From positions 124,001 to 188,000 of the forward strand of contig NZ_JALBWV010000001.1 in NCBI RefSeq assembly GCF_022678645.1: a DNA stretch of 64,000 nucleotides, given 5' to 3'. Shown here piece after piece: positions 7,043 through 60,020 of this stretch. The notes under the pieces are model-generated. The model was not told the DNA's origin and did not search any database. It saw only the letters and a program-made list of their open reading frames with translations. Origin of the DNA: Saccharopolyspora soli (GTDB taxonomy: Bacteria > Actinomycetota > Actinomycetes > Mycobacteriales > Pseudonocardiaceae). Within the stretch, counting starts at the first letter, position 1, and every line of letters starts with the position of its first letter. The translations under genes were made by a program, and so were the position numbers.

Positions 7043-8086
7043 ATGAGCGAAACCATCGTGACGGGGGCGCCCCCGCTCGCCCGGCCGACCGAGACGACGT
7101 CCGCCACGCTTGAGGTGCGCAGGCTCGTCACCGATTTCCGCACCGAAAGCGGCACGCTGCGCGCCGTCAACGAGGTCTCCTTCCGGCTCGACCGCGGTCG
7201 GGTGCTCGCCGTCATCGGGGAGTCCGGTAGCGGCAAGAGCGCCATGCTGCGCTCGATCCTCGGCATCCAGCCGAAATCCGCCATCGTCACCGGCGAGGTC
7301 CTGCTCGGCGGGCGAGACCTGCTGCGGCTGTCGCCGAAGGAACGCGCCGCCACGCGCGGACGCGACGTCTCCATGGTCTTCCAGGATCCGCTCACCGCAC
7401 TCGACCCCGTGTACACAGTGGAGCAGCAACTCGTGGAAACGGTGCGCACGCACGCGGAAGTCAGCAGGAGCACAGCCCGTCGGCGCGCGCTGGAACTGCT
7501 GGAGCTGGTGCAGATCCCGTCGCCCGCCGAGCGGCTGAGCGCCTACCCTTCCGAACTCAGCGGTGGCATGCGGCAGCGGGTGGTGATCGCCATGGCGGTG
7601 GCTGGTTCACCCAAGGTGCTGCTGGCCGACGAACCGACCACCGCGCTCGACGTCACCGTCCAGGCCCGCATCCTGCGGTTGTTCCGCGAACTGCAACAGG
7701 CGCAGGACATGGACATGATGATCGTGACGCACGATCTCGCCGTCGCCGCCGACATCGCGGACGACGTCGCCGTCATGTACGCCGGGCGGATCGTCGAAGC
7801 GGGACCGATCGGTACCGTGTTGCGGGCGCCGTCGCACCCCTACACCCAGGGCTTGGTCGAAGCGAACGTCCGGCCCGGACAGCGGATCCGGCCGCGGGCC
7901 ATTCCCGGTGCACCGCCGAGTCTGGCGAGGCTGCCACCCGGCTGCTCGTTCGCGCCGCGCTGCGACGTCGCCACCGTGGCCTGCTGGCAGGAGTTGCCGG
8001 AACCGGTGGCGGTCGGCCCCGGTCGGTGGAGCCGGTGCCTGCACAGCACCCCGAGCGGCCCGGTGGAGTCGCCCCATGTCGCGTGA
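7043..8086 (+). CDS. ABC importer ATP-binding protein, OppD/DppD type
   Basis: 347-residue ATPase of the oligopeptide/dipeptide importer class. Walker A is GESGSGKSAM, the signature is LSGGMRQRV, Walker B is VLLADEPTTALD, and the switch His is in IVTHDL. The C-terminal extension with PGCSFAPRCDVATVACW is the Opp/Dpp-type cysteine cluster (PF08352), which may hold an iron-sulfur centre. The ATG at 7043 is preceded by AAAGGGG. Its end overlaps the start of the substrate-binding protein by 11 bases. It works with the membrane proteins at 9719 and 10776 and the second ATPase at 11717. Confidence 0.93.
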   Translation: MSETIVTGAPPLARPTETTSATLEVRRLVTDFRTESGTLRAVNEVSFRLDRGRVLAVIGESGSGKSAMLRSILGIQPKSAIVTGEVLLGGRDLLRLSPKERAATRGRDVSMVFQDPLTALDPVYTVEQQLVETVRTHAEVSRSTARRRALELLELVQIPSPAERLSAYPSELSGGMRQRVVIAMAVAGSPKVLLADEPTTALDVTVQARILRLFRELQQAQDMDMMIVTHDLAVAADIADDVAVMYAGRIVEAGPIGTVLRAPSHPYTQGLVEANVRPGQRIRPRAIPGAPPSLARLPPGCSFAPRCDVATVACWQELPEPVAVGPGRWSRCLHSTPSGPVESPHVA

Positions 8087-11716: not shown

Positions 11717-12715
11717 ATGACAGCCGCCCAGCACACTGCGGCGCAGCCGCTGCTCCAGGTGGACCAGGTCAGCAAGACCTTCGGCGTCCGCCGCGGGCTG
11801 AAACGGGCCACCGTGCACGCGGTGGACGAGGTGTCCCTCGTGGTGCGGCCAAGTTCCACGCTCGGCATCGTCGGCGAATCCGGCTGCGGGAAGTCCACCC
11901 TCGCCCGGCTGGTGCTCGGCCTGTACCCGGTCGATGCCGGGGACATCCGCTTCGCCGGGAAGTTGTTGCCCCGCACCGGGAAACGGCCTCGTGCGGTGGT
12001 CGAGCAGATGCAGATGGTGTTCCAGGACCCGTACTCGGCGCTCAACCCGCGCGCCTCGGTCGGCGGCTCCATCGCATTCCCGCTGGAGGTCCAGGGCGTG
12101 GGCAACGCGGAGGTCCGCGAGCGGGTGGCGCAGGCGTTGGAGGACGTCGGCCTGCACGGCAACTACGCCACCTACTACCCGCACCAGCTCAGCGGCGGCC
12201 AGCGCCAGCGCGTCAACATCGCCAGGGCGCTGGCGATGCGGCCGAAGCTTATCGTGCTCGACGAGTCGGTGTCCGCATTGGACAAATCGATCCAGGCGCA
12301 GATCCTGAACCTGCTCCAGGACCTGCAGGAGAGCTACCAGCTGACCTACATCTTCATCAGCCACGACCTCAACGTGGTCGAGTACATGAGCGACCACGTG
12401 GCGGTGATGTACCTCGGGCAGGTCGTGGAGACTTGCGGTGCCGAGGCCCTCTACCACCAACCGCTGCACCCCTACACCCAGGTGCTGCTCGCCTCAAGCC
12501 CGTCGCTGGAGGTCACCGAGCGGACCACGGCGCCGGAGCCGACCAGCGGCGAGATGCCCAGCCCGCTGGATCCGCCCAGCGGCTGCCGGTTCCGCACCCG
12601 CTGCCCGTTCGCGATGCCGACTTGCGCGACCACCACCCCGGTGCTCGCCGAGGCCGCCCCCGGCCACCTGGTGGCCTGCCACCTGTACCCGTCGAGTCAA
12701 CCCGCTGCGAAATGA
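11717..12715 (+). CDS. ABC importer ATP-binding protein, OppF/DppF type
   Basis: 332-residue second ATPase of the importer. Walker A is GESGCGKSTLARL, the signature LSGGQRQRVNIARAL, Walker B LIVLDESVSALD and the switch ISHDL. The C-terminal SGCRFRTRCPFAMPTCATT is the Opp/Dpp cysteine cluster. In VLDESVSALD a serine replaces the usual proline/threonine of the D-loop region, as in many OppF proteins. AGGGGAGACC precedes the ATG at 11717. Together with the four preceding genes it completes a five-part importer. Confidence 0.93.
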   Translation: MTAAQHTAAQPLLQVDQVSKTFGVRRGLKRATVHAVDEVSLVVRPSSTLGIVGESGCGKSTLARLVLGLYPVDAGDIRFAGKLLPRTGKRPRAVVEQMQMVFQDPYSALNPRASVGGSIAFPLEVQGVGNAEVRERVAQALEDVGLHGNYATYYPHQLSGGQRQRVNIARALAMRPKLIVLDESVSALDKSIQAQILNLLQDLQESYQLTYIFISHDLNVVEYMSDHVAVMYLGQVVETCGAEALYHQPLHPYTQVLLASSPSLEVTERTTAPEPTSGEMPSPLDPPSGCRFRTRCPFAMPTCATTTPVLAEAAPGHLVACHLYPSSQPAAK

Positions 12716-46992: not shown

Positions 46993-48080
46993 GGGTCGCT
47001 CCTTCCCCCGAGCAGCAGGGCCAGCGGTTCGGTGAGCAGTTCACGCACGCGCGCCAGGAATGCCGCCGCGTCGGCGCCGTTGAGGATGCGGTGATCTGCC
47101 GTGAGCGTCGCGCGCAGCACGCGGCCTACCGCTAGCACGCCGTCGCGCGCGCACGCGCGTTCCTCGACGGCGCCGACAGCGAGGATCGCCGCTTGCGGTG
47201 GGTTGATCACGGCGGTGAACTCGCTCACCCCGTACATCCCGAGGTTCGACACGGTGAACGTGCCGCCGTCGAGTTCGGCGGGTGTGAGCAGACCCGTGCG
47301 GGCGCGCTGGGCGAGCGTGTGCGCGGCGCGGTCGATGTCGGTCAGGGTGCGGGTGTCCGCGTCGAACACGGTGGGCACCAACAGCGCGTCCTCAGCTGCC
47401 ACCGCGATCCCGACGTTGACCCGTCCGTATAGGTGGAAGGTGTCGTCGAGGTATGCCGCATTGACGCGCGGGTGTGCACGCAAGGCGAGCGCGACCGCCT
47501 TGACGACCATGGCGTTGTAGGTCGGTGCCTCGCCGGTGACCGTCGCGATCCGGTCCCGCAGCTCGGCGCAAGCGTCCATGCCGATCTCGGTGGTGACCGT
47601 GAATTCGGGGATCGTGCGCTTCGCCTCAACCATCCGCGCGGCCACCGTCCGCTGTCCGGTGGTCGGCTCGACGACCGTCACCGCACCCCTGGCATCCTGC
47701 TCAGCACTGGCGGATGGCGTGGCCGCCTCGACGTCGGCGCGCACGATCCGCCCACCGGGGCCGGTTCCGTTGATGGCGGCGAGGTCGATGTTCTTGTCCC
47801 GAGCGAGTCGTCTTGCCAGCGGAGACGACTTGAGCCGCACGTCCGCGGTGGCCGCTTCGATCCGCGCGATGGGCGCGCCCACCGCGCGGGTTTCGCCCGC
47901 CCCGGCAAGGATTTCCAGCCGCCCGGCGAGCTCAGCCTGGTAGGTCACCGTCGCTTTGTCGGTCTCGATCTCGACCAGGTCGTCGCCGGGGCGCACCTGG
48001 TCGCCGGACTCCCGCAGCCAGCCGACGATCACCCCGTCGCGCATCGACTCCGACAGCCGGGGCATGAGCATCTCGGACAC
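46989..48080 (-). CDS. E2 dihydrolipoamide acyltransferase
   Basis: 363 residues from GTG 48080; ATG 48071 is a possible start too. One lipoyl domain with the lipoylated lysine at about residue 42 (VEIETDKATVTY), one peripheral subunit-binding domain (KSSPLARRLARDKNIDLAAINGTGPGGRIV, about 110-145), and a catalytic domain ending with TLTADHRILNGADAAAFL, carrying the catalytic histidine. FTVSNLGMYGVSEFTAVIN is also typical. It takes acyl groups from E1 to CoA. A single E2 appears to serve two E1 pairs, and no E3 gene is found in the window. Confidence 0.92.
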   Translation of the reverse strand: MSEMLMPRLSESMRDGVIVGWLRESGDQVRPGDDLVEIETDKATVTYQAELAGRLEILAGAGETRAVGAPIARIEAATADVRLKSSPLARRLARDKNIDLAAINGTGPGGRIVRADVEAATPSASAEQDARGAVTVVEPTTGQRTVAARMVEAKRTIPEFTVTTEIGMDACAELRDRIATVTGEAPTYNAMVVKAVALALRAHPRVNAAYLDDTFHLYGRVNVGIAVAAEDALLVPTVFDADTRTLTDIDRAAHTLAQRARTGLLTPAELDGGTFTVSNLGMYGVSEFTAVINPPQAAILAVGAVEERACARDGVLAVGRVLRATLTADHRILNGADAAAFLARVRELLTEPLALLLGGRSDP

Positions 48081-48084
48081 CGCG

Positions 48085-48831
48085 TCACCAACCCGCGACG
48101 GAACCGGCGTCCACCGGCATCGCGATGCCGGTGACGAACGACGAGTCGTCCGAGCACAACCACGCGACGGCGGCGGCGACCTCGGCCGGATCACCAGGAC
48201 GGCGCATCGCCTGCGGGCGCAGGATCTCCTCCTGCCGCTGCGGGCTGATGCCGCTCATCAGCGGCGTCATGATCGCTCCAGGGCACACGGCGTTGACCCG
48301 GATCCCCTCCTCGGCGTACTCGATGGCGCCGTTCTTGGTCAACCCGACGATGCCGTGCTTGCTGGCGGTGTAAGCGCTGAGCAGTCGCACGCCGCGCAGG
48401 CCCGCGTTCGACGAGGTGTTGACGATCGACCCGCCGCCACCGCGCAACATCTGCTGGATCTGGTACTTCATCCCGAGGAAGGTGCCGCGCAGGTTGACCG
48501 CGATGACCCGGTCGAACTCGGCGGCCTCGGTGTCGGCGAGCAGCTTGTGCACGCCGATCCCCGCGTTGTTGTGGGCGAAGTCGAGGGAACCGAACCTTTC
48601 GACGACGTGCGCGACGAGCGCTTCGTTGTCCTGCTCGCTGGCGACGTCGCAGGCGAAGAACTCGGCCCGCCCGCCAGCGTCCTCGATCGTCCGGACGGTT
48701 TCCGCGCCGCCCTCGCGCGCCGATTCGAGATCGGCCACGACGACCGCGGCACCCTCGGCCGCGAGCCGGATCGCGCAGGCCCTGCCGATTCCGCTCGCCG
48801 CACCGGTGACCAATCCTGCCTTGCCGTGCAT
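48085..48831 (-). CDS. Short-chain dehydrogenase/reductase
   Basis: 248 residues from ATG 48831 (GTG 48834 is three bases upstream). Cofactor motif VTGAASGIGRA near residue 8, NNAGIG, and the catalytic set S-Y-K with SNAGLRG and YTASKHGIV. ARPGDPAEVAAAVAWLCSD-type C-terminus is classical. The D in VVVADLES suggests NAD preference. First gene of the operon; E2 starts four bases after its stop. Could be an acetoin/diol or sugar-alcohol dehydrogenase. Confidence 0.9.
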   Translation of the reverse strand: MHGKAGLVTGAASGIGRACAIRLAAEGAAVVVADLESAREGGAETVRTIEDAGGRAEFFACDVASEQDNEALVAHVVERFGSLDFAHNNAGIGVHKLLADTEAAEFDRVIAVNLRGTFLGMKYQIQQMLRGGGGSIVNTSSNAGLRGVRLLSAYTASKHGIVGLTKNGAIEYAEEGIRVNAVCPGAIMTPLMSGISPQRQEEILRPQAMRRPGDPAEVAAAVAWLCSDDSSFVTGIAMPVDAGSVAGW

Positions 48832-48868
48832 CACGCTCGAAAGCTAAGCGCACCGGGCCGGGAAGACC

Positions 48869-49873
48869 TTAGTCTGCGTGCGGGATTACTTGCCCATTCA
48901 TGCGCGTCGCGGCCGCCCGCCGCACCTCCCGCGGGCTCTGGCCGTACTCGCGCTTGAAGACGTTCGAGAAGTGGGCGGCATCGGAGAAACCCCAGCGGAA
49001 CGCGATTTCCGTGACGGTGCTGGCACCGGGCTGCTCCAACTCGGCGCGGCAGCGCGCCAACCGGGACTTGCGCACGAACGCCGCGACCGACTCGCCGGTG
49101 TCCTCGAACAGGCTGTGCAGCGAGCGCAGCGAAATCGCGTGCGCCCTGGCGATGGACTCGGGGCCGAGACCGGGATCCTGCAGGTGGACCCGGATGTAGC
49201 GGCGGATGTCGGCGCGCAGCGCATCGCGAGCGGCGGCCTTGCTGCCGGGTAGCCCCGGCTCGACCGCGGCCCGCAGCAACTCCAGCGCAACGTCGGTGGC
49301 GGTGCTGACGGCCGAATCCGCACCAGCGGCCAGACCGGGCAATTCGTCGGCGAGCGCGTCCAGGTATCGGACGAGCAGGCGTGTGCTGGGACTTTCGCCG
49401 AGCGAGGGCAGCGCCTGCAGGTCGGCCAGCCGCGGGCACACCGCGAGCACCCGGTCCCTCGGGAAGATCAACGTGCGTTTCACGAACGGCTCGACGACCT
49501 CGACGTCGACCGGATGCGCACCGTCCCACAGGATTGCCTCACCGGAGGTGACCACGTGCTCGCCGGAGGCGTAGCGGATCCGCTCCGCACCCCGGCGGAC
49601 CGTCTGGAAGCCGATCGCCGATTCGCCCACGCCGCCCATCAGCACGTCGTGGCGCCCGGAGAACGGCGTGCACACGCAGTCCACCAGCGTCAGCTCGCCG
49701 AACCTGCGGCGCACGACCGTGCCCTGGAACTTCTTGGGCGTGCGATGGGTGAACCGGACGTCGAAGCCGACGTGAGTCGACGCCAGGATGTCCGCCCACT
49801 CGTCGGCGACGCCGAAGCGGTCGGCCGTTCGCTGGATGCACCAGCGTTCGGGCGCGTTCGACAAGGGCGCCAT
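48869..49873 (-). CDS. AraC-family regulator with AraC_binding_2 N-terminus
   Basis: 334 residues from ATG 49873, with AGGGAGG upstream. N-terminal about 200 residues form a cupin-like AraC_binding_2 sensor. The C-terminal DNA-binding domain has IARAHAISLRSLHSLFEDTGESVAAFVRKSRLARC and the second helix-turn-helix TVTEIAFRWGFSDAAHFSNVFKREYGQSP. It is directly upstream of the SDR/E2/E1 operon in the same direction (38 bases gap) and divergent from the alcohol dehydrogenase, so it probably activates both. Confidence 0.9.
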   Translation of the reverse strand: MAPLSNAPERWCIQRTADRFGVADEWADILASTHVGFDVRFTHRTPKKFQGTVVRRRFGELTLVDCVCTPFSGRHDVLMGGVGESAIGFQTVRRGAERIRYASGEHVVTSGEAILWDGAHPVDVEVVEPFVKRTLIFPRDRVLAVCPRLADLQALPSLGESPSTRLLVRYLDALADELPGLAAGADSAVSTATDVALELLRAAVEPGLPGSKAAARDALRADIRRYIRVHLQDPGLGPESIARAHAISLRSLHSLFEDTGESVAAFVRKSRLARCRAELEQPGASTVTEIAFRWGFSDAAHFSNVFKREYGQSPREVRRAAATRMNGQVIPHAD

Positions 49874-50048
49874 TGCCCCGCCTCCCTGTTGCCGTGCGAT
49901 CGTCCGGTCAGCCTGTCTCGAAAGGTGCCCTGCTTTCAACCGCCGTCTTGGCTACGCGCGCGCGAGTTGTTGTCACTTCACGCGGTTCCGACCGCGTTCG
50001 CGGAGTGTGGCGGTAGCGTCGCGGAGGGTCTGCGGAAGGGAGTGTCAC

Positions 50049-51056
50049 GTGCGTGCCGGAGTGTTCCGCGGTGCGGGGCGGATGCCGATCGAGCAGGTGC
50101 CCGATCCGGTGGCCGGACCCGCCGACGTAGTGCTGGAAGTGCGGGCGTGCGGGGTCTGCGGCTCCGACCTGCACGCCTACACGCAGGGGTTGTTCACCAA
50201 GCCCGGCCAGATCATGGGCCACGAATTCGCTGGGGAGGTCGTGTCGGTCGGCGCGGAGGTCGCGGGTATTGCGCGCGGCGACCGGGTGACCGGGCTGCCC
50301 ATCCAGCCGTGCGGAGCGTGCCGTCGTTGCCGCGAGTCGGTCGGGCACCTGTGCGAGGTGTGGAACACGCGCAGCATTGCGTTCGGGCTGCCGGGTGCCT
50401 TCGCGGAGCAGTTGCGGATTCCAGACGCGGTGCTCGGCTACAACGTCCACAAGTTGCCGGACGCCGTGACCTTCGAAGCAGGTGCGCTGGTCGAGCCGCT
50501 CGCCGTCGCCGTGCACGCTGTCCGGCAGGCGGCGCTGAGTCCGGGCCAGTCCGCGGTGGTGCTCGGCCTCGGCACGATCGGACTGCAAGTGGCGCAGGTC
50601 CTGATGGCCGAAGGAGCGTCGCCGGTGATCGGCGTCGACCGATCGCCGCTGCGCCGGTCGATCGCCGAACGGCTCGGCGTCACGGTGTTCGCCGACGTGG
50701 CCGACGTGCCCGGTGACCCGGAGATCGACACCGTCTTCGAGGTGACCGGCGCGCCTGCCCTGGTGGCTCATGCCGCCGAAATAGCCCGCCCACGGGGAAC
50801 CGTGCTGATCGTGGCGCTCTACGAGGAGCCCGCCCAGTTGGACCCCACGCGGCTGGTGCACAAGGAGCTCACGGTGCGCGGAAGCGCGATGGTCACCCCG
50901 GAGGACTTCCGCGACGCCATCGACCTGCTCGCAACCGGAAAGGCCCAGACGGAACCCCTGATCACGCACCGCAAACCGCTGGCCGAACTGGGCGCCGCCT
51001 TCGACGCGCAAACGGACGCGGACCAAGCGGTGAAGGTCATGGTCGTGAACGACTAG
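50049..51056 (+). CDS. Zinc-dependent alcohol/polyol dehydrogenase (MDR family)
   Basis: 335 residues from GTG 50049; GAAGGGA lies seven bases upstream. Catalytic zinc ligands: Cys in RACGVCGSDLHAY and His-Glu in MGHEFAGEV. Structural zinc: PCGACRRCRESVGHLC. Cofactor site GLGTIGLQVAQVL followed by VIGVDRSPLRRS, an NAD-type aspartate. This is the threonine/sorbitol/2,3-butanediol dehydrogenase branch. It is divergent from the AraC gene and probably part of the same catabolic unit as the E1/E2 operon; 175 bases separate the two starts. Confidence 0.9.
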   Translation: MRAGVFRGAGRMPIEQVPDPVAGPADVVLEVRACGVCGSDLHAYTQGLFTKPGQIMGHEFAGEVVSVGAEVAGIARGDRVTGLPIQPCGACRRCRESVGHLCEVWNTRSIAFGLPGAFAEQLRIPDAVLGYNVHKLPDAVTFEAGALVEPLAVAVHAVRQAALSPGQSAVVLGLGTIGLQVAQVLMAEGASPVIGVDRSPLRRSIAERLGVTVFADVADVPGDPEIDTVFEVTGAPALVAHAAEIARPRGTVLIVALYEEPAQLDPTRLVHKELTVRGSAMVTPEDFRDAIDLLATGKAQTEPLITHRKPLAELGAAFDAQTDADQAVKVMVVND

Positions 51057-51212
51057 GGACTGTTTCAGCAGTGGCCTGCCCGGACCGCAAGTGGCTACGC
51101 CGCCGGTAAAACCAGCCCCGGCCGCGCAGCCGGTTTCGAACGGGGACCGCCGATCTCCTGCGGCTGCGGTCGCCTGTCAATGTGGCCGTCACCGCCAGGT
51201 AGGCTCCGCACC

Positions 51213-52064
51213 GTGACGGATGATGCACGGGATGGCGACATCGCCGCAGCTGAGGCCGATCTTCCGGTCATCGACATGTCTGTTCCCAGCATTGCACGGG
51301 TCTACGACGCATTCGTCGGCGGCAAGGACAACTACGAGGTCGACCGCGCGCTGTACCGGCAGGTGCTGGAATTCGCGCCGGAAGCGCCCGCGTTCGCGCG
51401 CGAGCACCGCGACTGGCTGATCCGGGTCGTCCGCTTCCTCGCTGGCACCGCCGGAATCGACCAGTTCCTCGACTGCGGCTCCGGGCTGCCCACCGCGGAG
51501 AACACCCACCAGGTGGCACAGCGCGTCAACTCCGAAGCGCGGGTCGTCTACGTCGACAACGACCCGGTCGTGCAAGCCCATGGGCGGGCGTTGCTGGAGG
51601 AGAACGATCGAACTCGCTTCGTCGCGGGCGATCTGACGGATCCGGCTGCTCTGCTGGCCGATCCGATGGTGCGCGGGCACCTCGACTTCAACCGGCCCCT
51701 CGCGCTCATCCAGTGCAGCACCATCCACCACGTGCCCGATTCGCAGGATCCGAACGGGATCATGGTGGCTTACATCGACGCGCTGCCATCCGGCTCCTAC
51801 GTCGCCCTGACCCACTGGTACGACCCGGCCGACGGCAGTGGCGTCAGCGCAACCGCACGCCGCATCCAGGACTTGTTCAACAACGGCGGACTGGGCTCGG
51901 CGACGTTCCGCAGCCGAGCCCAGATCGAGTCGCTGTTCACCGGACTGGAACTGCTCGAACCGGGACTGACCCGAATCGCGGACTGGTGGCCGAGCGGACC
52001 GAGGCTCAAGCCCCTCGCCGACATCGACGACATAGTCCTCGGCGGCGTCGGACGCAAGCCGTGA
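51213..52064 (+). CDS. DUF574 SAM-dependent methyltransferase-like protein
   Basis: 283 residues from GTG 51213. The family pattern is present: PSIARVYDAFVGGKDNYEVDR near residue 27, FLDCGSGLPTAENTHQVAQ as the SAM-binding loop, and VYVDNDPVV for the ribose-binding acid. QCSTIHHVPD follows. The family is widespread and highly multiplied in actinobacteria; the substrate is unknown. It has no evident operon partner. The start gives a sensible N-terminus; a longer frame from 51180 also exists. Confidence 0.88.
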   Translation: MTDDARDGDIAAAEADLPVIDMSVPSIARVYDAFVGGKDNYEVDRALYRQVLEFAPEAPAFAREHRDWLIRVVRFLAGTAGIDQFLDCGSGLPTAENTHQVAQRVNSEARVVYVDNDPVVQAHGRALLEENDRTRFVAGDLTDPAALLADPMVRGHLDFNRPLALIQCSTIHHVPDSQDPNGIMVAYIDALPSGSYVALTHWYDPADGSGVSATARRIQDLFNNGGLGSATFRSRAQIESLFTGLELLEPGLTRIADWWPSGPRLKPLADIDDIVLGGVGRKP

Positions 52065-52112
52065 ATCCCCGCGACCACACTCTGCACCACAGGATGACGG
52101 GCCCGATTGGGG

Positions 52113-52156
52113 TCGCGAGTGCGTAACCGGGCTCCAGTCCGGCTGTGCACTCACGA
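52113..52156. repeat. Family B intergenic hairpin, copy 4
   Basis: Imperfect arms of about 20 bases (TCGCGAGTGC left, GCACTCACGA right, with inner ACCGG/CCGG pairing) separated by a short loop. It follows the methyltransferase gene and precedes the xylanase promoter; probably a terminator or a dispersed element. Same outer motif as 28009 and 38664. Confidence 0.65.
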
Positions 52157-52160
52157 GATC

Positions 52161-52190
52161 TTGACGCCTCGTGCGGGTACGGCTTAATGT
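52161..52190 (+). promoter_or_regulatory. Candidate promoter of the xylanase gene
   Basis: TTGACG at 52161-52166 and TAATGT at 52185-52190, 18 bases apart, match a sigma-70/HrdB-type -35 and -10. The predicted start of transcription is about 52197, and the operator-like repeats begin just after it. Confidence 0.6.
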
Positions 52191-52200
52191 CCGTTGCGCG

Positions 52201-52230
52201 AAGTTTCTGAAACTTTCCGGAACTTTCCGG
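52201..52230 (+). promoter_or_regulatory. Candidate operator of the xylanase gene
   Basis: AAGTTTCTGAAACTT at 52201-52215 is a perfect 15-base inverted repeat. It overlaps an exact tandem repeat of AACTTTCCGG at 52211-52220 and 52221-52230. GAAA/TTTC palindromes of this kind lie before xylanase genes in Streptomyces and relatives. The location at or just after the transcription start suggests a repressor roadblock. Confidence 0.65.
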
Positions 52231-52261
52231 GAGACGTCGGTACCCAGGAGCGGAGTCCGCG

Positions 52262-53374
52262 ATGATGCCGAACCGCCTCGTCACCGCCACTTTCGTCGCA
52301 GCGCTCGCAGTTCCGCTGGTAGCCCAAGCCGCTGCTGCGCAACCCACCGATCGCGGCGCGCCCGACACGCTGCGCGCGGCGGCGCCCGAGGGGTTCGTCA
52401 TCGGATCGGCCGTCGCAGGCGGCGGCCACCACTCGGAACAGCCCTATCCCGATCCGTTCACTTCGGACGCGCCGTACCGGGACGTGCTCGCCAGCGAGTT
52501 CAGCTCGGTCTCGGCGGAGAACCAGATGAAGTGGGAGTACCTCCACCCCGAGCGGGACCGCTACGAGTTCGGCATGGCCGACGCGATCGTCAGCTTCGCC
52601 GAGCAGCACGGCCAAGCGGTGCGCGGGCACACCCTGCTGTGGCACAGCCAGAATCCCGAGTGGTTGGACAACGGCGACTTCTCCGCCGACGAGCTCCGCG
52701 AGATCCTGCGCGAGCACATCATGACCGTGGTGGGCCGCTACGCGGGCCGCATCCAGCAGTGGGACGTGGCCAACGAGATCTTCGACGACTCCGGCAACCT
52801 GCGGACAGCGGAGAACATCTGGCTCCGCGAGCTCGGACCGACCATCATCGCCGACGCGTTCCGCTGGGCCCACGAAGCCGATCCCGAGGCGGAGCTGTTC
52901 TTCAACGATTTCGGCGTCGAGGGCGTCAACGCCAAGAGCGACGCCTACTACGCGCTCATCAAGGACCTGCAGGCCCAAGGCGTGCCGGTGCACGGCTTCT
53001 CCGCGCAGGCCCACCTGAGCATCGAGTACGGTTTCCCCGCCGACCTGGAGGAAAACCTCCGCAGGTTCGACGAACTCGGCCTCGCCACCGCCATCACCGA
53101 GCTCGACGTGCGGATGATCCTGCCCGACAACGGCGTGCCGACCGATGCGCAGCTGGCGCAGCAGGCCGACTACTACCGCCGAACACTGGTCGCCTGCCTG
53201 AACGTCGACGGCTGCGACTCGTTCACCATCTGGGGCTGCACGGACAAGTACTCCTGGGTCCCGGTGACTTTCCCCGAAGAAGGAGCGGCAACGGTCATGT
53301 GGGACGGCTTCGTCCGCAAACCCGCCTATTTCGCGCTGCGCGACACGCTCGCCCAGACACGGGACAACCGCTGA
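52262..53374 (+). CDS. Secreted GH10 endo-1,4-beta-xylanase
   Basis: 370 residues. Signal peptide LVTATFVAALAVPLVAQAAAAQ, cleaved near residue 27. The rest is a single GH10 TIM barrel: VRGHTLLWHSQNPEWL, the acid/base E172 in QWDVANEIFDDSG, VHGFSAQAHLS and the nucleophile E280 in AITELDVRM; DSFTIWGCTDKYSWVP closes the barrel. No carbohydrate-binding module is attached. ATG 52262 or 52265. It cleaves xylan outside the cell. A promoter with a GAAA/TTTC operator lies directly upstream. It is next to remnants of a sugar uptake locus, suggesting the region once handled plant polysaccharides. Confidence 0.95.
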   Translation: MMPNRLVTATFVAALAVPLVAQAAAAQPTDRGAPDTLRAAAPEGFVIGSAVAGGGHHSEQPYPDPFTSDAPYRDVLASEFSSVSAENQMKWEYLHPERDRYEFGMADAIVSFAEQHGQAVRGHTLLWHSQNPEWLDNGDFSADELREILREHIMTVVGRYAGRIQQWDVANEIFDDSGNLRTAENIWLRELGPTIIADAFRWAHEADPEAELFFNDFGVEGVNAKSDAYYALIKDLQAQGVPVHGFSAQAHLSIEYGFPADLEENLRRFDELGLATAITELDVRMILPDNGVPTDAQLAQQADYYRRTLVACLNVDGCDSFTIWGCTDKYSWVPVTFPEEGAATVMWDGFVRKPAYFALRDTLAQTRDNR

Positions 53375-53416
53375 TCCAGGACCTGATCAACACCGATGAT
53401 CCGAGGTCGCTGCGGG

Positions 53417-53524
53417 TCATGCGACCGGTACCCGCATCACCGGCCGGTAGTAACCGGCGGGCCACGGTTCGTCGCCGATCTCAACCAGGGCGGGAGGTTC
53501 GTAGGTGAGCTCGTGCTCGGTCAT
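53417..53524 (-). CDS. Putative orphan lasso-peptide-type RiPP precursor
   Basis: 35-codon ORF on the minus strand, ATG 53524, TGA 53417-53419, with GAAAAGAAG eight bases upstream. The first half contains TYEPPALVEIGD, the YxxP...G leader pattern recognised by lasso-peptide RRE proteins (YEPPxLVExGDF type). The C-terminal part, GYYRPVMRVPVA at the end, has no Asp/Glu at ring position 7-9 and no Thr two before a Gly, so it may be a degenerate or different core. No lasso B or C genes are in the window. The call rests on leader pattern and RBS; a chance ORF is possible. Confidence 0.42.
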   Translation of the reverse strand: MTEHELTYEPPALVEIGDEPWPAGYYRPVMRVPVA

Positions 53525-53711
53525 GCGATCAACTTCTTTTCGGGAGTGCTTTGGTGTTCCGCGTACGCCGAACGCTCGATGTGCGCTGGCATCCGGTCAG
53601 GGACCCGAGAGTCCCGTTCCGGTAAATGCCGTAGTTGTCCAGAGCGCTTTCTTCGCACTTTCCTGCCAGGGCGGGTGAAACGCAGACGCCCTGCGCCCCT
53701 GAGCCGTGCGG

Positions 53712-54001
53712 TCATCGGGACCTCCGGATGACCGCCGCACCGAGCGGGGCGAGCACGACCTGCTCGCGCACTTCCTCGCCGGACAGCAGATCCGTGCCGC
53801 CGGGCGACACCGGGATGGTCGCTTCCTCGTCGGCGCTGTGGTTGAGCAGGAACAGGAACTCCTCCTGCTCGCCCTGCCTGGTGGTGCATTCGACGTGGCT
53901 TGGCACGTTCGGGTGCGGCTGGGTGACGTCGGCCGCTGCGACGGCCTCCAGCAAGACCTGGTTGAAGGTGAGCTCGTCCAGCAGCGTCGCCAGGTACACG
54001 A
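53712..54001 (-). pseudogene. C-terminal fragment of GH42 beta-galactosidase
   Basis: About 95 residues, ATTLL-type start YLATLLDELTFNQVLLEA, then VPSHVECTTRQGEQEEF, LFLLNHSADEEATIPV and VVLAPLGAAVIRR, the C-terminal beta-sandwich (domain C) of GH42 enzymes. The catalytic barrel is missing. The coding part joins directly to a permease fragment at about 54001, so one deletion removed the rest. The stop is at 53712-53714. Confidence 0.72.
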
Positions 54002-54199
54002 CTAGTCCGACGGCAGCCCGATTTGGTCGAGCAGGTTGACGATCGGGCTGGTGCCGGGCAGGTAGAGGAACGCCCAGATGATCGAGGCGATCACGCCGGG
54101 AATGGCGTAGGGCAGGAACGCGACCATCTGGAACACGCTGCGCAGCCGGACCACCACGGTGTCGAAGATCAACGCCATCAGCAGCGCCAACCCGAGCAA
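54002..54199 (-). pseudogene. Internal fragment of a MalF-type sugar ABC permease
   Basis: About 65 residues, LGLALLMALIFDTVVVR followed by FQMVAFLPYAIPGVIASIIW and FLYLPGTSPIVNLLDQIGL, the middle of a sugar-type permease with two helices. Both ends are cut: the upstream part is missing after the LacI gene and the downstream part stops at the GH42 fragment. It is a relic of a carbohydrate importer. Confidence 0.72.
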
Positions 54200-54268
54200 C
54201 AGCGCGCAGCGCGGATGTTCCTCTGCGGCAAGGGATTCCGAGCTGGGCTCCGTGCAGCGGAGGTCGGG

Positions 54269-55324
54269 CTAGCGGTGGGCTGAACGGTGGCGGGCGGCGA
54301 GCCGTTGCGAGCTCTGCCGGATGATGAGCTCCGGGGCCACCTGCACGCGCTTTTGAAAGTTTCGGTCGCCACCGATCTGGTCCAGGAGCAGTTCGATGCT
54401 CCGCTGGCCCACGGAGGCGAAGTCCTGCCGGACCGTGGTCAGCGGCGGTGGGTAGTACGCGGCTTCCGGGACGTCGTCGAAACCGGCCACGACGACGTCG
54501 TCGGGTACCGCGATACCCGCCTCCGCGAAGGCGTGCAGCAGACCGATCGCCATCTGGTCGTTGGCCACGAACACCGCCTGCACGTCACCCCGTCTCGCCA
54601 GTTTGCGGCCGATTTCGTAGCCGTTCGCGGGGCTCCAATCGCCGCGCGGCGGATCGGGTACCCGTGCACCGGCGTGCACGAGTTCCTGCTGCCATCCGGC
54701 CAGCCGCGCCTCGGCCTCCAGCCAGTTGGCCGGTCCGGCCACGTGCCACACCGTGTCGACGCCCTGGTCCAGCAGGTGCCGCGTGGCCATCCGCGCGCCG
54801 AGTTCCTGGTCGACGCTGACGACCGGCAGCCCCGGAGCGACGCCTCCTTCGGCCACGACCAGGGGCAGCGTGTCGCGCAGCGTGTCGAGCGCGGCGACCG
54901 TCCCCAGGACCGGGGCGATCACGACGATCCCCTCCACGCCCTGATCGGTCAGCCGAGACACCGCCTCGCGCAGGCTGGCCGGGGTCGGTACCCCGGAGTT
55001 CGCGACGGCGACGAAGTAACCGGCCTCGCGCGCCGCGCGCTCGACGCCGTTGAGGGTTCGCATCGGCCCGTACAGCGTGGTCTCGTACCCGATCACGCCC
55101 AGCGCCTGGGAGCGCTTGGTCACCAGGGCGCGGGCGGCGCTGTTGCGCCGGTACCCCAACCGCTCGATCGCTTCCTGGACGCGTCGGCGGGTGTCGGGGC
55201 GAACCGAAGGGTGACCGTTGAGCACCCGCGAGACCGTCTGGTGGGAAACGCCAGCGGCCCGCGCGACATCCGTCACGGTCGCTGCCCTACCGGCCCGGTC
55301 GGGCAGATTCGGCTGACTGGCCAT
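54269..55324 (-). CDS. LacI-family transcriptional regulator
   Basis: 351 residues from ATG 55324. Helix-turn-helix at residues about 20-65: TVTDVARAAGVSHQTVSRVLNGHPSVRPDTRRRVQEA. The periplasmic-binding-like sensor follows, with VEGIVVIAPV, LPVVSVDQE and VFVANDQMAIGLLHAF. The gene is complete, with a perfect operator about 90 bases upstream, although the sugar importer and beta-galactosidase it presumably controlled are deleted. Likely ligand is a beta-galactoside or similar oligosaccharide. It may still regulate the xylanase or itself. Confidence 0.9.
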   Translation of the reverse strand: MASQPNLPDRAGRAATVTDVARAAGVSHQTVSRVLNGHPSVRPDTRRRVQEAIERLGYRRNSAARALVTKRSQALGVIGYETTLYGPMRTLNGVERAAREAGYFVAVANSGVPTPASLREAVSRLTDQGVEGIVVIAPVLGTVAALDTLRDTLPLVVAEGGVAPGLPVVSVDQELGARMATRHLLDQGVDTVWHVAGPANWLEAEARLAGWQQELVHAGARVPDPPRGDWSPANGYEIGRKLARRGDVQAVFVANDQMAIGLLHAFAEAGIAVPDDVVVAGFDDVPEAAYYPPPLTTVRQDFASVGQRSIELLLDQIGGDRNFQKRVQVAPELIIRQSSQRLAARHRSAHR

Positions 55325-55738
55325 TCGCGGTCTCTCGCAATTTGGCCCGGAGTGGTCATGGGCCGTGTCCTGCCGAGGAAATAGCTCCTCAGTCGTTCGC
55401 AGTACCGACACTACATGTTAGCGCTAACAGATCTTTGATCATACTGTCCGCAGGCGAGCGGCCATCACGGGATCTTCGATCCGCTGTTGAGTTCGGGCAT
55501 CGACCGGAATCCGCGATTTGTTCTTTAATTCTCCGTTTTCCGGCTGACCGTGACGCGCTGATTCGAACACGCCGTGCAGCCGGGGCAGCCACTCGCTGGT
55601 CGTGAGTTCCAGCAGCAGGCAGCTCGAATACCTGCCAGCCGCCAGGACGAATGGCGGCTGGCGGTGACGACATCCGGCTCGCGCGGCGCCACGCTCGCAA
55701 TGGGGGTTCGTCAAGCGGGGCCCGAGGAGAGAGCAACC
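55325..55738. other. 414-base region between LacI and PrsW genes, no gene seen
   Basis: Divergent upstream regions of the LacI and PrsW genes. It contains the LacI-type operator at 55416-55429 and an AT-rich patch near 55500-55545 (TTTGTTCTTTAATTCTCC), but no ORF with codon bias or a ribosome binding site that I can support. Confidence 0.7.
55416..55429. promoter_or_regulatory. LacI-family operator
   Basis: TGTTAGCGCTAACA, a perfect 14-base inverted repeat with a central CG, the standard form for LacI/GalR regulators. It lies 92 bases before the LacI start, so the gene is probably autoregulated. Confidence 0.8.
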
Positions 55739-56710
55739 ATGATGCCATCAGCAGCGGGCGCGGCCCCGGACCAAGCCGAATCCACCGAAACCCAGCCGCG
55801 CAAGCCGCGGACCAGACCGGGGTGGGTGCGGATCTTCGTCAGCGGACTGGTGCTGTGGTTGGGCTCGGTGCTGGTCACGTTCACGACCGGGAACGTCACC
55901 CTGATCCCCACCATCATCCTGCTGGGCAGCTTCCTGATCCCGGTCACCTTCGTCGCCTACGCCTTCGAGCACTCCGATCAGGTCGTCACCGGCCAGCGGG
56001 TCTTCACCGCCTTCGTGTCCGGCGGGGTGCTCGGTGTGCTGGGGGCCTCCGTCCTGGAGTCCGCCTTCCTCGGCCGTCCTTTCGGGCTGACCTACCTCGG
56101 CGTCGGACTGATCGAGGAGGCCGTCAAGCTCGCGGCGCTGTGGTTGCTGGCGCGGCGCTTGCCCCGCTACACGATGCGGGACGGGATGGTGCTGGGTGCC
56201 GCCGTCGGGTTCGGCTTCGCCGCGTTCGAAAGCGCTGGCTACGCCTTCAACGCGCTGTTCACCTCTGGCGGCGGCCTGTCGCTGCTGAACCTGGTCGAGA
56301 CCGAGGCGCTGCGCGGCATCGCGGCACCGGTCGGGCACGGGCTGTGGACGGCGATCCTCGGCGCGGCGCTGTTCGCGACCGCCGCGCGGCGTGGCCGACT
56401 GAGGCTCGGCGGCGCGATCTTCGGTTGGTACGCGCTGGTGGTTGTGCTGCATGCCATGTGGGACGGCTCGCGGGGTATCGCGGGCTGGCTGACGCTGGTG
56501 CTGACCGGCACGCCGCGGCAGTGGCTGCTGATCGAACTCGGCGCGGCGTCAACCGCGACCCAGGGCCAACTGCACCTGTACACGGCGCTGATCTGGGTGT
56601 TGTTGCTGGTGGACGCGCTCATAGGTGTCCTGGCGCTGCACGGTCGCTGGCGGCGGGCGACCGCCACGCCGCGTCCGCCCGCGGAAGACGACGCGAATGA
56701 CCGAATGTGA
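55739..56710 (+). CDS. PrsW-family intramembrane metalloprotease
   Basis: 323 residues with about eight membrane helices after a short cytoplasmic N-terminus. The conserved PrsW features are all present: EEAVK in GLIEEAVKLAALW, the second acidic motif in GFAAFESAGYAFNAL, and H-x3-DG in VLHAMWDGSRG. The paired glutamates and histidine would bind a metal. Members cleave anti-sigma factors in the membrane. ATG 55739 (or 55742) follows GAGGAGAGAG. No anti-sigma gene is adjacent; the ECF42 sigma at 59985 has no typical membrane anti-sigma. Confidence 0.88.
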   Translation: MMPSAAGAAPDQAESTETQPRKPRTRPGWVRIFVSGLVLWLGSVLVTFTTGNVTLIPTIILLGSFLIPVTFVAYAFEHSDQVVTGQRVFTAFVSGGVLGVLGASVLESAFLGRPFGLTYLGVGLIEEAVKLAALWLLARRLPRYTMRDGMVLGAAVGFGFAAFESAGYAFNALFTSGGGLSLLNLVETEALRGIAAPVGHGLWTAILGAALFATAARRGRLRLGGAIFGWYALVVVLHAMWDGSRGIAGWLTLVLTGTPRQWLLIELGAASTATQGQLHLYTALIWVLLLVDALIGVLALHGRWRRATATPRPPAEDDANDRM

Positions 56711-56770
56711 TCAGCCGCGACCCGAACTCGCAGGAATGCGCTTCGGGGGTCGCGCTGGAAGGGTGGCGTT

Positions 56771-57172
56771 GTGTTCCGATGCCTGATCGTCGACGACAGT
56801 CCGCGTTTCGCCGCTGCCGCTCGCGGGCTGCTGGAAGGCGGGGACATCGCGGTCGTCGGGGTGGCCGCCACCGGTGCGGAGGCGTTGTGGCGGGCGGCCG
56901 AAATGCGGCCGGACTTCGCCCTGGTGGACATCGATCTCGGTGAGCAGAGCGGCTTCGACGTGGTCCGGCGACTGCACCGCGAAGCTGGCCTCGCGCCGTC
57001 CCGGCTGATCCTGATCTCCACCCACGCCGAGCAGGACTACGCGGAGCTGATCGAGGCCAGTCCGGTGGTCGGGTTCCTGTCCAAGACCGAGCTGTCCACC
57101 GCCGCCATCCACGAACTGCTCCGGCGAGCCCACGACGACGAGGGACCGGTCAGCGGGCTTCCAGGAAGGTGA
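56771..57172 (+). CDS. Stand-alone response-regulator receiver protein
   Basis: 133 residues with a complete receiver domain: acidic pocket DD at 8-9, phospho-acceptor D53 in FALVDIDLGEQSG, S in LILISTHAEQD, and K in LSKTEL. No output domain follows; it ends with a short tail overlapping the convergent NarL gene by 23 bases. GTG 56771 is the start. It could act as a phosphate sink or bind a partner; the histidine kinase at 57863 is the nearest candidate donor. Confidence 0.85.
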   Translation: MFRCLIVDDSPRFAAAARGLLEGGDIAVVGVAATGAEALWRAAEMRPDFALVDIDLGEQSGFDVVRRLHREAGLAPSRLILISTHAEQDYAELIEASPVVGFLSKTELSTAAIHELLRRAHDDEGPVSGLPGR

Positions 57173-57794
57173 CCACGGCCAGCACCCGGCGGTGCACGTC
57201 GTCGGTTTCCCCGAGATTCAGCTTGGCCAGCACGTGCCGCACATGCTTCTCCACCGTTCCCTCCGTGAGCCACAACCGGCGGGCGATGCCCGCGTTGGAG
57301 CGCCCTTCGGCCATCAATGCCAAGACCTCGCGCTCCCGCGCGCTGAGCGCGGCGAGCGGGTCGTCGCGCCGGTGTGCGGTGACCAGTTCCCGCACGAGCG
57401 CAGGGTCCACGACCGAACCCCCTTTGGCGATGCGCTCCAGCGTGTCGACGAATTCGTCGACGTTGGTGATGCGGTTCTTGAGCAGGTAACCGATCCGCTG
57501 CCCGGTGGCCAGCAGTTCCATCGCGTGCTCCACCTCCGCATGCGCGGACAGCACCAGGATGGCGGTCTCGGGGAACTCGGCGCGGATCACCCGTGCCGCG
57601 TCCAGGCCCTCGGTGGTGTGCGTCGGGGGCATCCGGATGTCGACCACCACCAGCTCGGGAACCAGGTCGCGCACCAGCGCGAGCAACCCCGAGCTGTCGC
57701 CAGCCTGCCCGACGACGTCGAAACCCGACCGTTCGAGCAGACTGGCCAGGCCCTCGCGAAGCAGGACGTCGTCCTCGGCCAGAACTACTCGCAC
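57150..57794 (-). CDS. NarL/LuxR-family response regulator
   Basis: 214 residues. Receiver with AEDD at the N-terminus, phospho-acceptor at about residue 52 in VVVDIRMPPTHTTEGL, and K in YLLKN. The C-terminal LuxR helix-turn-helix reads LSAREREVLALMAEGRSNAGIARRLWLTEGTVEKHV. GTG 57794 or 57797 starts it; GGAG favours the first. Divergent from the histidine kinase, 65 bases apart, forming a two-component pair. Confidence 0.92.
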   Translation of the reverse strand: MRVVLAEDDVLLREGLASLLERSGFDVVGQAGDSSGLLALVRDLVPELVVVDIRMPPTHTTEGLDAARVIRAEFPETAILVLSAHAEVEHAMELLATGQRIGYLLKNRITNVDEFVDTLERIAKGGSVVDPALVRELVTAHRRDDPLAALSAREREVLALMAEGRSNAGIARRLWLTEGTVEKHVRHVLAKLNLGETDDVHRRVLAVVTFLEAR

Positions 57795-57862
57795 CACGGC
57801 TCCATCGGTTTGACCAGCATCTTCGACCAGCGTCTCACCGGTAAGCGTCCCACGCTGTGGGC

Positions 57863-59287
57863 ATGTCGTGGAGACCGCGCAACCCGTCCGAGCCCCAGCT
57901 CAGCGCCGGGCTGACGCGCCGCATGCTCATCGCCAGCGGCCTGCTCGCGCTGGTCATCGGTGCTGCCTTCGCCGTCCTGCTCGCCTCGGTCGCCGACCTG
58001 CGCGCGTCGGAGCGCAGCACCCGCCAGTCCGAAGAGGTGGTCGTCGCGGCCAACCGGCTGGAGCGGCTGGTCGTGGACGTCGAGGCGGGCGAGCGCGGAT
58101 TCCTCGTCACCGGGCAGGACGACAGCCTCGCGCTGTGGCGATCCGGGCAGGCTGCCATTCCCGCGCAGGCCGAGACGCTGCAACGCTTGGTGGCCGACAG
58201 CCCCGGACAGCTCGGCCTGGCCAGGCAGATCCAGCAGGCTGCCAACGCCTACATCCAGGACTACTCGACCCCGTTGGTCGAGACCGCGCGACGAGACCTG
58301 GCCGCCGCCCGAGCTCAAGCGGCCAACGGCGAGGGAGTGCGACGCATCGACGCGATCCGGGCTGAGTTCGACCGCCTGGTGACGGTCGAACAGGGTCTGG
58401 AGGTGGAGAGGCAGAGCCGCTCCGGCGCGGCTGGCCGCCGCGCCATCGCCGCGGCCGCCACCGGTCTCGCCGGATCGATCCTGCTCATCGTCATTTTCGC
58501 GGCCTACCTCGCCCGCGTGATCGTCGGGCCGGTCCGCCGGGCCGCGGCGATGGCCGGTCGGCTCGCCAGCGGCGACCTCGGCGCGCGGCTGCCGGAGCGC
58601 GGTGTTGGCGAGATCGGTGTCCTGGAACGCAGTTTCAACACGATGGCGCGCTCGCTGCAGTCCAGCCGGGAAGAGCTCGCCGCCTCGCGGGCCCGGATCG
58701 TGGCCGCGGCGGACCAGGCGCGGCGACGCATCGAGCGCGACTTGCACGACGGCGTCCAACAGCGGCTGGTGTCGCTGGCACTGGAACTGCGCGCTGCGGA
58801 GGCGGCCGCGACACCCGAGCTCAAGCAGCGGCTGGCCGGTGTCACCAGCGAGCTGGTGGGTGCGACCGACGACCTGCGGGAGCTGTCCCGTGGTATCCAC
58901 CCGGCGATGCTGTCCGAGGGCGGACTACCGCCTGCGCTCCGGGCGCTGGCCCGCCGCTCGGCGGTGCCGGTCGAGCTCACCGCGGACATCCCGGAGCGGC
59001 CGCTCGAACAGGTCGAGGTGGCGGCGTACTACGTCGTCTCCGAGGCGCTCACCAACGCAGCCAAGCACGCCCGCGCATCGGTGGTCCACGTGGCGGTGTG
59101 GGCGCGGGACGACGGCCTGCACCTGGTGGTCCGCGACGACGGCGTCGGTGGTGCGACGACCGGGCAGGGCTCGGGACTGGTCGGGCTGACCGACCGGGTC
59201 CAGGCGCTGGGCGGAACGATCACGATCACCAGCCCGCCAGGCGAGGGCACCACGCTGGTGGTGGATCTCCCCACCGAAGTCCGCTGA
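57863..59287 (+). CDS. Sensor histidine kinase with CHASE3 and HAMP domains
   Basis: 474 residues from ATG 57863. Two helices (about 20-40 and 195-215) enclose an extracytoplasmic CHASE3 sensor; TRQSEEVVVAANRLERLVVDVEAGERGFLVTG is its typical opening. A HAMP region follows with RRAAAMAGRLASGDLGARLPERG. HisKA_3: RRRIERDLHDGVQQRLVSLAL, with the phospho-histidine in LHDGVQQ. The ATPase domain has SEALTNAAKHA and DDGVGG...GLVGLTDRVQALGG. It phosphorylates the NarL-type regulator encoded divergently. Confidence 0.93.
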   Translation: MSWRPRNPSEPQLSAGLTRRMLIASGLLALVIGAAFAVLLASVADLRASERSTRQSEEVVVAANRLERLVVDVEAGERGFLVTGQDDSLALWRSGQAAIPAQAETLQRLVADSPGQLGLARQIQQAANAYIQDYSTPLVETARRDLAAARAQAANGEGVRRIDAIRAEFDRLVTVEQGLEVERQSRSGAAGRRAIAAAATGLAGSILLIVIFAAYLARVIVGPVRRAAAMAGRLASGDLGARLPERGVGEIGVLERSFNTMARSLQSSREELAASRARIVAAADQARRRIERDLHDGVQQRLVSLALELRAAEAAATPELKQRLAGVTSELVGATDDLRELSRGIHPAMLSEGGLPPALRALARRSAVPVELTADIPERPLEQVEVAAYYVVSEALTNAAKHARASVVHVAVWARDDGLHLVVRDDGVGGATTGQGSGLVGLTDRVQALGGTITITSPPGEGTTLVVDLPTEVR

Positions 59288-59513
59288 CCAGCACCCGGCC
59301 ACCAACCCTTCGCTTCGGTCACACGTCGAATATCGCCGCACCGAGACCTCCAGTACGAGGTGAATATTCCAAAATCTCCACACCACAGCCTGTCAACCGC
59401 ATCGGTGGACCACTCGCCGATAGTCGCAATTCCGGGCGGCGGCACTTAGCGTGTTTAACGCCCACAATGGCGAGATTCTCAATTTGAGAATGTTCCTCCG
59501 AGAGGAGCGTCCA

Positions 59514-60020
59514 GTGACGACGGCACTCGACAACCTGCATGTGGTGATGCTGGAATCCCTCCAAGATCCAGAGGTTGACGTCAAGAACTACAAGAACAAC
59601 TTCCACACCCTGACATCCACTGCTGGCCAGGTTTATAGCTACAAGATTGCGCAGCTGAACGACCCCTCGCAGTGGCCTGGCGGTGCGGGGGCGTATTACG
59701 CGGCGCAGCAGAGCTGGAACAACGTCGCGTACGACCTCCAGAACTGGGCCAATACGACCCTCAAAAAGGCCAATTTGAACATCAGCGATTTCGTCTACGA
59801 CGACGTCACGATTTCCCCTCGGTTGACCGAAGCGATCAAGTGTGCAGAACAATTGATCCAGAACCCGGGCGACGACCAGACGAAGGTCGACTTCCAAAAG
59901 GTGTCGAGGTGTAGCGAACCTTGGGAACATCGACCTTCGCACGTCGTTTTCAACTTGTTCGTCACGTCAACTTGGGGTGTTCGGCTATTCCGAGTCCGTC
60001 ATGCCTGCCAGTTCCGTTAG
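59514..60020 (+). CDS. Low-GC gene of unknown function
   Basis: 168 residues from GTG 59514, with GAGAGGAG just upstream. The DNA is clearly poorer in GC than its neighbours, roughly mid-50s percent by eye, with codons such as AAG, AAT and AAC. The protein is rich in Asn, Gln, Tyr and helices ([20 protein letters not shown]). No signal peptide or membrane helix; no family recognised. After about residue 125 the sequence changes character and an alternative frame also looks protein-like, so a frameshift or truncation is possible. The 3' end overlaps the convergent sigma factor gene by 36 bases. Confidence 0.6.

Follow-up and report, generated by a model that had tools for sequence, protein, structure and literature searches.

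Genes and gene remnants at the locus

The window (the whole 64,000-nucleotide stretch of DNA that was analyzed) contains, as the sequence-only reading had stated, a genuine 35-codon open reading frame (ORF), which runs from ATG to TGA on the minus strand (53417–53524) and encodes MTEHELTYEPPALVEIGDEPWPAGYYRPVMRVPVA. It lies between a GH10 gene (52262–53374, plus strand; PF00331, E = 9.8e-91) and the gene of a LacI-family regulator (54269–55411, minus strand; PF00356 and PF13377). Two gene remnants share this interval. The first (53712–53999, minus strand) retains only the C-terminal domain of a GH42 β-galactosidase (PF08533, E = 1.2e-10): its 95-residue ORF covers positions 2–58 of 58 of the model, and the catalytic part is missing. 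The second (54002–54199, minus strand) derives from the interior of a sugar ABC permease gene and covers positions 89–145 of 295 of the UgpA model NF007852 (E = 1.7e-8, below the cut-off). Both pieces (53712–54199, minus strand) are adjoining remnants of a sugar-use operon downstream of the LacI gene; they are neighbours of the lasso relic described below and lie outside it. The presence of three remnants between two apparently whole genes suggests repeated deletion at the site.

No sister strain with an intact or an empty site was found among 22 genomes of the genus. The DNA between the flanking genes (53375–54268) was matched in 12 of the 22, including the genome itself, at E up to 1e-3, and the non-self matches are short, with at most 73 query bases and a best E of 2.6e-10. 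At E up to 1e-60, the LacI protein was found in one of the 21 other genomes, beside GH43 and GH2 genes. As no lasso protein of Streptomyces ureilyticus was matched in the 17.6 kb around it, neither an empty nor an intact site is seen there.

Homology to two parts of a lasso-peptide cluster

An intact lasso cluster with the gene order A-C-B1-B2 is present in Streptomyces ureilyticus YC419 (NZ_JAAKZX010000207.1, L119 13225–16118). Its B2 protein is named as lasso B2 by NCBIfam NF033537 (E = 2.6e-32, above the cut-off), B1 scores 97 bits with NF033530 (cut-off 70) inside a longer frame, and the macrolactam cyclase C scores 243.8 bits with NF033561, under the cut-off of 300. The precursor, MTEHAPTYEPPTLVELGDFADLTLGGIRHLSVDFITSAYGW, has a strong lasso leader (38.8 bits), and, assuming cleavage one residue past the penultimate Thr of this leader, its core would have an Asp at position 9. 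Two DDE transposase genes are found about 3 kb from the cluster (L119 8431–10195, plus strand).

Positions 53417–53660 of the window (244 bases) match one S. ureilyticus contig twice, with strand and order preserved. One alignment covers the upstream region and the leader, with 84% identity over 178 bases (150/178, E = 2.6e-50), and the other the end of the B2 gene, with 85% over 61 bases (52/61, E = 1.3e-12). They score 216 and 77, against maxima of 33 and 39 for shuffled sequences (200 shuffles each), and elsewhere in positions 48001–60000 no match to that contig was found at E up to 1e-3. In S. ureilyticus, where precursor, C, B1, and B2 are intact, the two pieces are 2,786 bases apart, separated by the core, C, B1, and most of B2, whereas in the window these 2.8 kb are absent and the same two pieces abut in frame. 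What the two loci share is the upstream region, the leader, and the B2 end. The abutting segments are two separated parts of one intact cluster, with order and strand kept; on sequence grounds, the ORF is a chimera of two genes from one lasso-peptide cluster, an in-frame fusion of a precursor leader to the C-terminus of B2. The two alignments have seven bases in common, CGGCGAC (53471–53477, minus strand). The breakpoint is there or close by, and its exact position cannot be fixed. Bases similar to TCGGYGA are found near the junction at the leader end, and at two sites near the B2 end.

Leader half and retained upstream region

The leader remnant, MTEHELTYEPPALVEIGD, comprises codons 1–18 (53471–53524, minus strand); 47 of its 54 bases and 14 of its 18 residues are the same in the S. 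ureilyticus precursor. With the NCBIfam model NF033521 (lasso_leader_L3), residues 8–18 score 19.2 bits for a cut-off of 19 (E = 8.8e-4), the match spanning profile positions 1–11 of 20 only, and in a six-frame search of the whole genome the site scores 18.0 bits (E = 0.056), under the cut-off. A lasso-leader call from the model alone is therefore marginal. The earlier description of the leader as lasso-like is borne out by the DNA homology to the S. ureilyticus leader, which settles the lasso origin of the ORF. A passage of PMC6856326 gives the lasso leader motif as YxxPxLxxxGxxxxxTx, and the YxxP...G part is present in the relic. The homology stops at Gly-Asp; the Phe and the Thr at position −2 that follow in S. 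ureilyticus are absent. According to a passage of PMC10368454, lasso precursors have Thr, or in rare cases Ile or Val, as the penultimate leader residue. A penultimate Thr is missing from the fused peptide, which has no Thr at all beyond residue 7.

The region upstream of the ORF (53525–53648, minus strand), identical to that of S. ureilyticus at 103 of 124 bases, is what remains of the lost cluster's promoter and 5′ untranslated sequence. A scan of 53360–53760 for sigma-70-like promoters and terminators gave 0 sites. The ribosome binding site that had been judged plausible is present as AGAAG, but it is weaker than the GGAAG of S. ureilyticus. Base changes relative to S. ureilyticus number 7 in 54 in the leader and 7 in 54 in the tail, too few for a selection test.

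B2 half

The remainder of the ORF, codons 19–35 and the stop codon (53417–53470, minus strand), encodes EPWPAGYYRPVMRVPVA, of which 14 of 17 residues are the same as the last 17 of the S. ureilyticus B2 protein. A second host gives a similar match: the C-terminus of a B2 protein in a genome of the family (G038), encoded in a locus with C and B1 (order C-B1-B2), is 58% identical to residues 17–35 of the relic (E = 0.029). Matches in these two hosts point to B2 as the origin of the second half, that of G038 being support independent of Streptomyces. The remnant begins at a Glu, 12 residues past the histidine of the HAW motif. This Glu at His+12 is present in 30 of 30 family B2 tails, from loci fetched out of matches in 119 of 390 family genomes. 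Lasso B2 leader peptidases have a transglutaminase-like domain with catalytic Cys and His. In the relic, the HAW histidine and everything N-terminal of it are gone, so that only the stretch after HAW is kept and neither catalytic residue is present.

A lasso core is expected to carry an Asp or Glu at ring position 7–9. No such residue is found in the fused peptide, where Glu19, itself part of the B2 half, is the last acidic residue. The lack of a ring acid in the second half had been noticed in the sequence-only reading, which had considered a new core type among its explanations. This is refuted, since the sequence taken for a core is the C-terminal end of a B2 peptidase: the ring acid is missing because this half did not originate as a core.

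Eight residues of the second half, WPAGYYRP, were also searched as a DNA pattern in a species-level genome collection, in which 17 stretches were found. One (L065, from S. ureilyticus) is a B2 C-terminus, in a protein ending HAWVEVGETPVGEPWPAGYYRPMLRVRVA. Two others (L071 and L068) gave weak alignments to B2 (E = 0.005 and 0.008) over 18 and 20 residues around the motif and were judged to be chance matches, and the remaining 14 gave no B2 alignment at E up to 0.01.

Distribution

No orthologue of the whole peptide was found in the 22 genomes of the genus (protein search, E up to 1), with matches in 13 including the genome itself and a best non-self E of 0.185, nor among the 390 genomes of the family (E up to 0.05), where 7 were matched, six of them non-self. 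Among the 23 loci from both searches (L022–L044), one (L041, in G038) is the B2 C-terminus presented above, and the other 22 have no lasso protein at E up to 0.001. By tblastn, the peptide matched three plasmid and five phage records, each partially and with E of 1 or more. It gave a single match in PHROGs (E = 0.21) and none in Pfam at E up to 1.

The relic DNA stretch occurs in 1 of the 390 family genomes, the window's own, and both pieces, separate, in 1 of 295 genomes of the genus of S. ureilyticus. That the sequences of hosts from two different families are so alike, even in the region upstream of the gene, suggests horizontal transfer. The lost type of lasso cluster is rare in both sampled groups, in keeping with patchy gain and loss of such clusters.

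Lasso-peptide genes elsewhere in the genome

When the 64-kb window was searched by tblastn with the S. ureilyticus A, C, B1, and B2 proteins (E up to 0.05), the only matches were the two halves of the ORF, and no other lasso genes were found. Beside the ORF there is no B1, B2, or C gene by this search, save for the 3′ end of B2 inside the ORF itself, in agreement with the earlier statement that no RRE, protease, or cyclase gene is nearby. In the genome as a whole, the only match above the cut-off for the B2 family PF13471 is on contig C181, and those for the PqqD family are on C181, C122, and C139, with none on C96, the contig of the window. The earlier proposal to look for lasso B and C genes in the complete genome leads to a separate cluster on C181, of another lineage than the relic.

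The C181 cluster (L019 6128–11634) has the order C-B1-B2-A1-A2-A3-D, with ABC-transporter genes. It contains three different precursors in tandem; assuming cleavage one residue past Thr, their cores would be FGIGGVAEGWNPIADRA, EFVGPYTEQILPFEDHSNEG, and AGPPAQAQEILWPIVDATYPLG. One of the ABC transporter proteins encoded in this cluster matches the window at 7556–7837 and 11822–12559 with 26–29% identity, more than 40 kb from the ORF. The cluster resembles the relic in biosynthetic class and in having precursors with an L3-type leader. It differs from that of S. ureilyticus in gene order, and its B2 and C proteins share only 46% and 30% identity with their S. ureilyticus counterparts, which indicates that the relic comes from another cluster lineage. 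By these comparisons, the C181 cluster is not the source of the relic.

Origin of the fusion and alternative explanations

The ORF is almost certainly the scar of a collapsed lasso cluster, in which the leader of A would have become fused in frame to the tail of B2. The sequence-only reading had listed a relic of a deleted cluster, beside a deletion scar, among its explanations. Two gene remnants do adjoin the ORF, and the relic is supported by the two-part homology, more exactly as the deletion junction itself. We infer an ancestor that would have carried the cluster in the order A, C, B1, B2, like S. ureilyticus; this order is taken from one cluster, as both halves were found in only one relative. 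A single deletion of about 2.8 kb would then have eliminated the cleavage site of the leader together with the core, C, B1, and the B2 body, so that the A leader ran directly into the final 17 B2 codons. The frame would have been kept, leaving a 35-codon ORF behind the old upstream region. As a CGGCGA motif is present near both ends, with the breakpoint in or near it, short direct repeats probably mediated the deletion. The body of B2 is not found elsewhere in the genome, where the only B2 is that of C181. The shortness of the tail alignment (61 bases) counts against a deletion.

An in-frame join is expected in about one third of random deletions and is therefore no evidence for or against function. 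Since the B2 histidine is gone and the leader has no Thr at position −2, the fused product could hardly serve as a precursor or a peptidase, and it is presumably inactive now. The relic is a genetic scar, and no new peptide or peptide class is needed to account for it.

There is a slight chance that the collapse accidentally gave rise to a decoy regulator, a leader-only microprotein that is still expressed from the former cluster's upstream region and interacts with the RRE protein belonging to the genome's other lasso pathway. The proposal that the fused peptide is made, binds the RRE protein encoded on C181, and tunes the C181 pathway fits the retention of the upstream region and of the leader up to Gly-Asp, but is scarcely credible, as the peptide is not conserved in other genomes, its ribosome binding site is weaker than that of S. 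ureilyticus, and the C181 leaders (YEAPIAVELGD, YEAPTAVELGN, YETPQVVELGS) are unlike that of the relic.

Processing in trans had also been considered. In that case the ORF would be an orphan precursor, and its product would depend on the lasso enzymes encoded on C181 or on other RiPP enzymes. The genome does hold C, B1, B2, and three precursors on C181, and the YxxP motif is kept in the relic leader. This is nevertheless very unlikely, because the fused product has no Thr at position −2 as cleavage site, no core, and no ring acid, its second half being the C-terminus of B2 with no acidic residue after residue 19. The absence of an orthologue among the 390 family genomes and the distance of the C181 enzymes from those of S. 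ureilyticus argue in the same direction. An assembly error joining two pieces of an intact cluster, conceivable in a draft of 184 contigs, has a negligible probability, as the junction is near position 177,470 of a 345,483-base contig, the B2 search of the assembly finds only that of C181, and the motif common to both sides of the junction is only about 7 bases long.

The feature is ordinary in kind, but clearly resolved. No report of a leader–B2 fusion of this sort was found in the lasso-peptide literature, judged by titles. A fusion scar can give rise to an orphan RiPP-precursor call that barely passes the standard lasso leader model; a quick test is to set the supposed core against the tails of the pathway's own enzymes.

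Comparable loci in other genomes

A locus of another genome of the genus (G020, L120 6562–6870; G020:C2:1734558–1734866) has a lasso leader (18.7 bits, or 19 with its neighbours) with a B2 fragment about 130 bases downstream. Neither C nor B1 was detected in 13 kb around it by tblastn with the S. ureilyticus and C181 proteins. It resembles the relic in being composed of a leader and a B2 fragment, with no C or B1 detected. Unlike in the relic, there is no fusion: the precursor frame continues past the leader into a core-like stretch, and the B2 piece comes from the interior of the gene and is interrupted by a stop codon, whereas that of the relic is C-terminal. Taken with the relic, a lasso cluster has been reduced to a leader and a B2 piece twice in the 22 genus genomes searched.

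A lasso-leader ORF encoding VVYEPPQLEELGGVVDLMLGNGEHDTADKGQYYW (L061, G015:C1:119097–119141) scores 19.4 bits, above the cut-off, but no Thr precedes its possible core; the single B2 listed for G015 lies on a different contig. B2 matches with one in-frame stop each, TGA at G007:C1:3774793–3775122 and TAA at G019:C126:7108–7401, are possibly further decaying lasso clusters.
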